Below are positions 4,926 to 22,542 of a stretch of DNA of 64,000 bases, one piece after another. Source of the DNA: Bifidobacteriaceae bacterium (lineage in GTDB: Bacteria; Actinomycetota; Actinomycetes; Actinomycetales; Bifidobacteriaceae); NCBI GenBank assembly GCA_022651005.1, contig JALCQD010000001.1, forward strand, positions 124,001 through 188,000, in the 5' to 3' direction. The position numbers and the translations under genes were made by a program. Each line of letters starts with the position of its first letter. Position 1 is the first letter of the stretch. The notes beneath the pieces are model-generated. The model searched no databases and was not told the origin of the DNA. It saw only the letters and a list, made by a program, of their open reading frames with translations.

Positions 4926-6677
<1,752 letters not shown>

Positions 6678-21042: not shown

Positions 21043-21085
21043 AAAGTGGCGTGGACTCAAGAACGAGTCCACGCCACTTTTATTT
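21043..21085 (+). terminator. terminator of hup
   Basis: A perfect 16-bp stem (AAAGTGGCGTGGACTC with its complement at 21065-21080), a 6-nt loop, then TATTTG. Confidence 0.92.
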
Positions 21086-21190: not shown

Positions 21191-21260
21191 TAGGTGCTAC
21201 AACTCGACTTTCGGTGCTGCAAAGTCACCTTGGGTGCTGCAAAGTCACCTTGGGTGCTGC
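21191..21260 (+). repeat. 20-bp tandem repeat, 3.5 copies, left of the DUF559 gene
   Basis: Copies start at 21191, 21211, 21231 and 21251 with core GGTGCTGC and a tail like AAAGTCACCTT; the second and third copies are nearly identical and the first is degenerate. The period is exactly 20 bp. The same core returns inverted at 21339 and on the far side of the gene. The rest of 21086-21396 shows no gene. Confidence 0.8.
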
Positions 21261-21338
21261 ATTGCTCAGAGAGCACTCGCCCGAATCTGCATGCTTCCGG
21301 CATGATTTCAAGGCTTTTCTGGCAATTCCGCGACTTCT

Positions 21339-21378
21339 TGCAGCACCCAGGCTTTTAGTGCAGCACCCGGGCTTCATT
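21339..21378 (-). repeat. inverted copies of the GGTGCTGCA repeat (left unit)
   Basis: TGCAGCACCC occurs at 21339 and 21359, again 20 bp apart and inverted relative to 21191-21260. Together they form a palindromic unit just beyond the 3' end of the DUF559 gene. Confidence 0.7.
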
Positions 21379-21396
21379 CATCGTAAAACTGCGAGC

Positions 21397-22338
21397 CTAT
21401 GTGCTCTGCCGTGCGAATGCCAACAAGATTTTGGACACGAGCAATTCAACTCTGTCGCTCTCTACGAGATCTTCTTTATACGCTGTTATGACGGTCCATC
21501 CCATTTGTTCCAGTTGATTGCGCTTGAAAATATCGTTCCTTCGTTGGACTTTGTCTATTGCGTGCTGCTCTCCGTCATATTCAAGGGCAACATGGTGGGA
21601 GGGGTACGCAAGATCCAATAAATATCGTTGCTGGTTTTCGCGATCGTAAACTGCATAATTCACTTCAGGACGCCCCAGGTGTCGGTGCATAAGAAGAAGA
21701 CGCAGTCTGGATTCTTGAGATGAATCTGTATTCTCAGCCAAAAGTGGCACAGCCCGAACGCATTTGCCTTTCCCAATGAATCGAGGAGAATTCTGAATGA
21801 ACTGTGCGAAATCGTCCAAACTTGCCTGCTTCAGACGAACATCTTTCCGCATCATTGAATCTCCAAGAACAACAAGCTCATCAAATTCCACATATTTAGA
21901 CATCTGTGCCCACGCCGTGACAGGCGGCACACAGTGAATATTCTCTCCAACGATTCGTGGAACGAAATCAGGGGTCCACAAGTGCATCACGGCACTCTGA
22001 CTCTGGGAGCGATCGCCCTTCTTTGAAAAACAGATATGTATTTTACTTAAGGAGTACTTCTTTCTCTTCTCAGGAAATGGCTTCAAAAATGAGGGCTTGA
22101 TTCTTGGCAACTCGATACCCAACAACGCTAAAGCCGTTGTATGGCTGAAGGCCCAGGAATTTCGCAAGCGAAGATGCTCAGCGAACTCTGAGCAAGTAGA
22201 AAAGGCGGTTGTAGCCACTTCCGTGAGAGAACTCAAGGTGATGTGCTTCGTTCTCCACGCTTCAGATGATTCGGAGTCTTCTAGCAATTCTTCCATGGCG
22301 CAAAGGATATTTAATTTCGTGCATCGCTGCATCCTCAA
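21397..22338 (-). CDS. DUF559-type endonuclease-fold protein
   Basis: 313 residues. The C-terminal third carries the Vsr/DUF559-like core, YLLDLAYPSHHVALEYDGEQ (acidic D and E-x-D residues), then RRNDIFKRNQLEQMGWTVIT, typical of PD-(D/E)xK-like proteins. The N-terminal part resembles the AbiEi/DUF559 proteins common in actinobacteria (TTALALLGIELP), whose role is unknown and sometimes linked to phage defence or mobile DNA. It stands alone, is poorer in GC than its neighbours, and is bracketed on both sides by phased GGTGCTGCA repeats. The start at 22338 is the longest; an ATG 14 codons in is also possible. Confidence 0.7.
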   Translation of the reverse strand: MRMQRCTKLNILCAMEELLEDSESSEAWRTKHITLSSLTEVATTAFSTCSEFAEHLRLRNSWAFSHTTALALLGIELPRIKPSFLKPFPEKRKKYSLSKIHICFSKKGDRSQSQSAVMHLWTPDFVPRIVGENIHCVPPVTAWAQMSKYVEFDELVVLGDSMMRKDVRLKQASLDDFAQFIQNSPRFIGKGKCVRAVPLLAENTDSSQESRLRLLLMHRHLGRPEVNYAVYDRENQQRYLLDLAYPSHHVALEYDGEQHAIDKVQRRNDIFKRNQLEQMGWTVITAYKEDLVESDRVELLVSKILLAFARQST

Positions 22339-22436
22339 AACAAAAACTGTGAAAACTGTTGATAACTGTCCACGCTCCGCCTGCCAGACTGTTAAGTTAC
22401 CGTCAATTCAGATCCACAAGCCCTTCGGTGCTGCAT

Positions 22437-22542
22437 GCCCTCTCCATAGAGCTATAAAAGCTCCCATATCAATAAGCAAAATCGCTATTATATTCGAGTT
22501 CCCAATACTATTTGCCGCACCGAAGCTCTCAATGCAGCACCC
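22437..22542. repeat. GGTGCTGCA inverted repeat unit right of the DUF559 gene
   Basis: GGTGCTGCA at 22437-22445 faces TGCCGCACC (22513-22521) and TGCAGCACC (22533-22541). The latter two are 20 bp apart, as in the left unit. The inner 60 bp is AT-rich. It lies between the 5' end of the DUF559 gene and the 3' end of pafA. Confidence 0.7.

Follow-up and report, generated by a model that had tools for sequence, protein, structure and literature searches.

This locus raises the question of why a gene for a DUF559 protein should be bracketed on both sides by short, precisely phased repeats. The window, i.e. the whole stretch of 64 000 nt analysed here, belongs to a 2.16-Mb Bifidobacteriaceae assembly (G000) and carries a DUF559/MTES_1575 Vsr-like nuclease gene at 21397..22338 on the minus strand (313 aa from the TTG at 22338, although an in-frame ATG at ~22296 is perhaps the likelier start). 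Its left neighbour is hup (HU, PF00216; 20719..21000, plus strand) and its right neighbour a Pup-ligase family gene (PF03136; 22550..24298, minus strand). A sequence-only reading of this DNA had described phased direct and inverted arms of the motif GGTGCTGCA flanking the gene on either side, and the sequence confirms this layout. Unit 1 (21193..21367, no strand assigned) lies where hup and the DUF559 gene converge, between their 3' ends, and consists of direct arms facing inverted arms: exact GGTGCTGCA copies stand at 21213, 21233 and 21253 on the plus strand and at 21339 and 21359 on the minus strand, together with a degenerate direct copy, GGTGCTACA, at 21193. In unit 2 (22427..22541, likewise without strand), which ends 8 bp short of the Pup-ligase stop codon, one direct copy faces two inverted copies; the copies at 22427 (plus) and 22533 (minus) are exact, and the inverted copy at 22513, TGCCGCACC, has one mismatch. 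The copies keep a pitch of exactly 20 bp, as had been claimed, and the inner direct and inner inverted copies are 86 bp apart, start to start, in either unit. The earlier coordinates also hold, except that the direct copy placed at 22437 was 10 bp off (22427 is correct), and the mismatch at 22513 has to be added. In total, the window contains 9 exact GGTGCTGCA matches where 0.74 are expected, a number reached in 0 of 100 shuffles. After hup, at 21043-21080, lies a perfect hairpin of 16 bp with T's behind it, which is distinct from unit 1 and probably an ordinary terminator.

By itself the GGTGCTGCA 9-mer is common in the genome (65 matches vs 40 for the reversed-pattern control). The 20-bp-phased pair, allowing up to one mismatch, gave 11 matches vs 0 in the control, and with up to three mismatches 14 vs 6. 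These 11 matches form five head-on units, namely units 1 and 2 and three more at C3:116562-116696, C3:343598-343753 and C1:599002-599199, and the inner start-to-start spans of the five are 86, 86, 86, 107 and 109 bp. The three further units are all far from the four DUF559 genes of the genome, which bears out the earlier suggestion of a small intergenic repeat family. One of the C3 units is located just upstream of clpB, and the C1 unit between an aminotransferase and a NUDIX gene (gene names from our reading of the translations); by our own ORF reading all five units occupy convergent or co-directional gaps and none a divergent one. A degenerate, gapped head-on search of G000 (inner gaps of 77-107 bases) found 10 forward vs 6 reversed-pattern matches, seven of the former falling within the five units and the other three on C2 (one) and C5 (two). 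The loops show no homology visible by eye and the arms pair only in part; with such loops, copying is less certain for the GGTGCTGCA family. Upstream of clpB (L017, ~5347-5370) we also noticed a CTTGAGT..CTCAAG palindrome near the repeat unit, which we take to resemble an HspR/HAIR operator. The phased pair is present in further contigs as well, 27 of genomes and 2 of viruses, none with a facing inverted pair alongside, and for that reason they are regarded as chance matches.

The comparison covered two other genomes of the window's genus and, in all, 58 relatives, in which the GGTGCTGCA phased pair had a single isolated match (G058). The link to the DUF559 protein proposed by the sequence-only reading holds, but in a gene-specific form: many DUF559 genes of the 58 relatives are bracketed by other motifs. 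A second DUF559 gene of G000 itself, at C1:188911, has another motif on both sides, GAGTTGTGCGATTGG, arranged head-on and mostly in 20-bp register. Allowing up to two mismatches, GAGTTGTGCGATTGG has 38 matches in G000 vs 6 for the reversed pattern; of the 38, 32 belong to units, two beside the gene and eight head-on ones dispersed elsewhere, and six are single. In G002, from the same genus, the gene at C52 lies between copies of a palindrome of its own, the one at C21 has a palindrome on one side, and the one at C29 repeats on both sides, degenerate copies included.

For a systematic comparison, 88 matched places in 59 genomes (G000 included) gave 85 DUF559 genes after merging of split hits, of which 74 entered the flank sample; the 11 left out comprise ten with E values of 5e-6 or worse and one in G008 (3e-19). 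Controls were ORFs of 220-450 aa taken from the window and, for 20 of the genomes, from a single 20-kb stretch each. The left and right 700-bp flanks share a 14-mer at 40/72 DUF559 loci (two loci with an incomplete flank omitted) vs 5/104 control ORFs, which are not matched for intergenic content (Fisher, 1.4e-14). With 500-bp flanks and 13-mers the result is 45/73 (one locus omitted for the same reason) vs 6/110 (3.9e-17). The 700-bp test gave 22/41 DUF559 loci vs 3/64 controls within the window's family f1, and 18/31 vs 2/40 in the other families of the order. The contrast is weaker for 12-mers, with 51/72 vs 24/104 overall and 24/31 vs 17/40 in the other families (p 3e-3). A 12-mer is common to a gene's own two flanks in 50 of 74 cases, compared with 878 of 5402 for the flanks of randomly paired genes, and left and right flanks of different DUF559 genes in one genome share a 12-mer in 53 of 164 cases; some ORF ends are off in these last comparisons. 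At 32/72 loci no shared 14-mer is present; some of these, such as L033, L084 and L085, still have visible repeats, and others have none. In T. tyrosinosolvens NCTC 13231 two other DUF559 genes share 13 and 33 flank 12-mers, three Arthrobacter loci 5, 14 and 0, and one Nonomuraea locus 1.

The elements take several forms, and their pitch is not always 20 bp. Simple palindromes occur at L028, L033, L037, L092 and L094, and head-on arrays phased at 19-20 bp at the window gene (L019) and at L086 and L023. Arrays of ~32 bp (32-33) whose orientation is opposite on the two sides are found at L119, L120, L124 and L129, a 40-bp pitch at L115, and tandem units of 72-74 bp at L029, L032, L104 and L109. 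Such tandem units flank several DUF559 genes of one genus, g7 (L104, L109, L032, L029 and L099), often on both sides, and small hairpins are seen inside those of L032 and L109. Two candidate signatures were tried and discarded: a recurring pitch (43/74 DUF559 loci vs 30/104 control ORFs) discriminates weakly and is not used as evidence, and the loop core CCGCATNATT was seen 6 times in the flanks (58 kb) and 3 times in the control (264 kb), but three of the hits stem from a single locus.

Dispersal was followed in three further genomes, in each of which a DUF559 gene lies between two units of the family concerned; in two of these families the units are of constant length. In G007, 18 arm matches form 9 units of 71 bp with arm starts exactly 53 bp apart, and two congeners have 0 matches to this family. 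In G043, there are 50 matches (reversed pattern 0), two of them singletons and the others forming 24 units of 72-73 bp, with visible sub-families, e.g. GCGTGATTTC and GGGAAATC. In G002, 33 matches (reversed pattern 3) resolve into 15 pairs in head-on orientation (arms offset by 87-98 bp), a single reversed pair and one singleton; the family has 0 matches in G000 and G001. Unit numbers per family are thus low (5-24). Only 7/24 units of G043 and 4/9 of G007 are clear of any ORF of at least 80 aa as called by us in these unannotated genomes; many of these ORFs may be spurious. The loops of the G007 family are up to 94% identical in direct and 91% in inverted orientation (L157 vs L161). In G043, the two arms of a unit covary with each other (score 0.146, which 0/500 shuffles reach, vs 0.083 when shuffled and at most 0.059 when slid), while two of five covariation measures, both-side changes and pair types, stayed within the shuffles (329/500 and 446/500). 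As arms covary in one family and loops are homologous in two, the second being described below, these sequence patterns indicate that the units are copies rather than convergent sites.

An annotated example is provided by Tsukamurella tyrosinosolvens NCTC 13231. Here, EL451_RS18665 lies between two 60-bp palindromes and EL451_RS09310 between two palindromes of 64-66 bp from another family, a few bases overlapping the annotated gene ends in either case. By blastn, 9 Tsukamurella records contain the first family and 8 the second, and the loops of the first are homologous. We inspected the best place in each of 15 records besides the genes' own (8 for the first family, 7 for the second). All 15 copies are intergenic, overlapping a gene end by no more than 6 bp; 10 lie between convergent and 5 between co-directional genes, and none between divergent ones. 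Four NCTC 13231 records labelled as 'plasmids' (L282-L285; NZ_LR134464, NZ_LR134454, NZ_LR134451 and NZ_LR134465) carry housekeeping genes such as purB, gatA and rpmG, and are therefore probably mislabelled pieces of the chromosome.

The private motifs change together with the proteins. When DUF559 proteins were compared in pairs across genomes (L117 and L121 left out), a bracketing 12-mer was common to 7 of 15 pairs with a relative bit score of at least 0.45 (at least three words: 6), to 5 of 28 pairs between 0.3 and 0.45 (at least three words: 1), and to 26 of 2435 pairs below 0.3 (at least three words: 0). Three or more words are common to seven pairs, six of them congeners and one (L047/L129) spanning families; since most close pairs are congeners, inherited flanks may account for part of the sharing. 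Such co-variation is what cognate recognition would predict, and it also fits any cognate binding. In a Bifidobacterium-like genus, one locus was compared between genomes. The motif is conserved between G009 and G064, whose proteins are 98% identical; G060 (61%) carries a different palindrome on either side, and in G063 (27%) a different one is present on one side. A dispersed site, compared by eye in six species (G062, G024 and G059 having no matching intergenic piece), carries three different palindromes in G009, G064 and G063 and none in G060, G061 and G035. We also observed that five related species (G063:C33, G060:C4, G061:C11, G062:C5 and G035:C1; L238-L241 and L246) have different DUF559 genes among shared neighbour genes. 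Their products are 27-61% identical to that of G009, with palindromes of their own at least in G063 and G060, and the place is a possible exchange hotspot. A different and very common hairpin repeat of the same genus, CCTCAGTCCGCC..GGCGGACAGCTCCCCTCC, is seen at ~3270-3330 of L244 (G009:C31) and at many places in G064, G024, G060, G061 and G035; queried in eight genomes it gave 17-58 matches in five and 3, 2 and 0 in the others, some flank matches being counted.

The window protein matches PF04480 at 24.2 bits, above the cut-off of 20.6, and PF18741 at 24.8 bits, below the cut-off of 38.2. We aligned it with the proteins of 67 loci, leaving out L117 and L121 (internal stops), L114, L118, L099 and L097 (over-long frames) and L019, which is the window gene itself. 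S206, E209, D242 and G256 are invariant among the 68 members, and E253 is present in 65/68, D269 in 67/68 and H259 in 57/68; by analogy with the family, the conserved acidic residues are putatively catalytic. A Pfam scan of the 68 members found six families, MTES_1575, DUF559, AbiEi_1, PvuRts1I-like_N, AbiEi_4 and DUF2726, and no HUH/Y1 transposase domain in any of them. A profile search of the PDB matched the nuclease domain to 3r3p ('Mobile intron protein', E 1.7e-5), which we take to be the EDxHD/Vsr-like homing endonuclease I-Bth0305I, and to 3hrl ('Endonuclease-Like Protein', E 1.3e-4). The nuclease domain is shared with these two, but no intron or interrupted target was seen, and the DUF559 gene lies between two intact units. 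As to a role in defence, PADLOC gave only weak matches (mREase_II, E 0.002; ZorE, 0.015), and an AlphaFold2 model of the window protein alone was unusable (mean pLDDT 31.9). A Vsr-type domain is named in the available part of one publication (PMC3710099).

Taken together, an association of DUF559 genes with REP-like elements is well supported. We consider it probable (roughly 0.65) that the dispersed repeats are a REP-like (REPIN-like) family whose cognate enzyme is the DUF559 Vsr-like PD-(D/E)XK nuclease, standing in for an HUH transposase. In REPIN/RAYT systems, according to the accessible parts of two papers, a single-copy gene lies beside palindromes of its own class, the palindromes are dispersed extragenically as inverted doublets, and a genome may hold several classes, each with its own enzyme and with co-evolution of enzyme and repeat (PMC3116915, PMC8266576). 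Like these REPtrons, the DUF559 families are dispersed as inverted doublets, extragenic in all 15 annotated Tsukamurella copies, and a single-copy gene is flanked by its own repeat class (in the dispersed families, and at the 40/72 loci by 14-mers). Unlike them, the enzyme is a Vsr-like nuclease and not an HUH protein, GTAG stands beside the palindrome in 0/41 units, some families are long phased arrays, and copies are few. Membership of REPIN/RAYT proper thus fails on enzyme and GTAG, whereas the anatomy, with its bracketing, inverted doublets and private families, resembles it.

The proposed mechanism would run as follows. A DUF559 protein combines a variable N-terminal part, in which an AbiEi-type DNA-binding module can be recognised in a few homologues, with the conserved Vsr-like PD-(D/E)XK nuclease domain. 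Each protein would recognise its own short motif; these motifs form inverted arms that enclose a loop, some of them simple palindromes and others, as in the window, 20-bp-phased arrays. A phased array could hold perhaps one protein per repeat, as AbiEi-type proteins bind 23-bp repeats side by side. The gene is bracketed by two units, and others are scattered through intergenic DNA, mostly at gene 3' ends. We infer that the DUF559 protein binds, nicks and copies the units: it would bind the arms, perhaps when these are extruded or single-stranded at replication, and nick at or beside the palindrome, after which repair or replication would copy the unit to new intergenic places, as proposed for TnpAREP/RAYT. 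The gene itself would remain chromosomal, with one gene per motif. The TnpAREP proposals, as far as the accessible parts of the papers go, themselves leave the mechanism open (PMC8266576, PMC3116915).

Among other readings, the sequence-only reading had offered operators, i.e. that DUF559 is an AbiEi-like DNA-binding regulator, the units being its sites for autoregulation and for a small regulon, and the catalytic residues having a separate role. We judge this unlikely. According to the accessible part of one paper, the DNA-binding module of AbiEi and Rv2827c recognises 23-bp repeats in inverted pairs, several of them in the promoter, a length near the 20-bp repeat found here (PMC7319586). AbiEi_1 matches 4/68 and AbiEi_4 1/68 DUF559 members (the window protein neither), so that similarity to these type IV antitoxins is detectable in a few members; co-variation of motif and protein and the lack of visible homology among GGTGCTGCA loops would suit operators too. 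However, AbiEi sites are at the promoter, and the units here lie on both sides of the gene, at 3' ends and dispersed; the 15 Tsukamurella copies and the five G000 units include not one divergent gap. Moreover, the C-terminal part of DUF559 is a nuclease, and the window locus differs from AbiE in having hup and the Pup-ligase gene as neighbours and no DUF1814/AbiEii toxin. Operators leave copies away from promoters without an account, as they do the homologous loops, which in G007 occur in both orientations, and the matching of the arms of one unit to each other at freely variable positions.

A conventional mobile cassette, in which units 1 and 2 are transposon-like ends carrying the DUF559 gene, was another of the earlier proposals and appears very unlikely. 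The distance of 197 bp between hup and the Pup-ligase gene in G001, of the same genus and without a DUF559 gene in between, would fit such a cassette, and at L119, L124 and L129 the array is direct on one flank and inverted on the opposite flank, resembling the ends of a transposon. This reading is not favoured because each side of the gene is a complete head-on unit, and units also occur alone elsewhere; G009 and G064, furthermore, retain gene and units at the same locus. The window protein matches 1/72,556 plasmid and 0/50,697 phage records, the plasmid records matched by two other members number 3 and 8, several of them very large or resembling chromosomes, and no relatives were found in viral contigs.

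It is highly improbable, in our estimate, that ordinary REP-like elements are moved by an HUH (RAYT/IS200-type) or other transposase encoded elsewhere, with DUF559 as a passenger or a domesticated user of the sites. The architecture of the elements equals that of REPINs, but motif similarity tracks DUF559 similarity, the families checked for dispersal have a DUF559 gene between two units, and GTAG or CTAC was absent within 10 nt outside the ends of all 41 units from three families (24 in G043, 9 in G007 and 8 in Tsukamurella). MITEs are likewise short, dispersed, palindromic and copied, with inverted terminal repeats. The DUF559-linked elements share the first four properties, but the cognate gene is a nuclease without a DDE transposase match, and no target-site duplication exceeded mispaired controls in G043, G007 or one Tsukamurella family: flank matches of at least 4 bases occur in 0/24 units of G043 (control 20/552), in 5/8 of Tsukamurella (21/56), and in 9/9 of G007, where TATA-like ends bring the control to 72/72. 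No clean empty site was seen. That the repeats are RNA-level elements (bidirectional terminators or 3'-end stabilisers) lying around DUF559 genes by chance has the slightest probability of all, for although predicted hairpins are strong in 4 of the 5 units tested (z -7.25, -7.13, -5.15 and -3.45; the fifth -1.88) and convergent gaps are preferred, it gives no account of gene-specific words in both DUF559 flanks that are rare in controls, and the only Rfam match at gathering score within the 41.7 kb surrounding the five units was a single tRNA.

Returning to the REP-like family with its DUF559 nuclease, we see about an even chance that it represents an independently evolved second class of REPtron, in which a Vsr-like nuclease replicates private palindromes in actinobacterial chromosomes, recognition having diversified fast and each paralogue having its own family. 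Searches of the literature (subscription papers and most preprints were outside their reach) found no description of DUF559-flanking repeats, and nothing relevant on REP elements together with actinobacteria, endonuclease or Bifidobacterium. If this reading is true, the partnership of REP repeats with a domesticated nuclease would have arisen at least twice, with unrelated enzymes. Many actinobacterial DUF559 proteins of unknown role would acquire a function, and many intergenic palindromes of actinobacteria would be explained. As each locus provides its own predicted substrate, the idea is directly testable in vitro.
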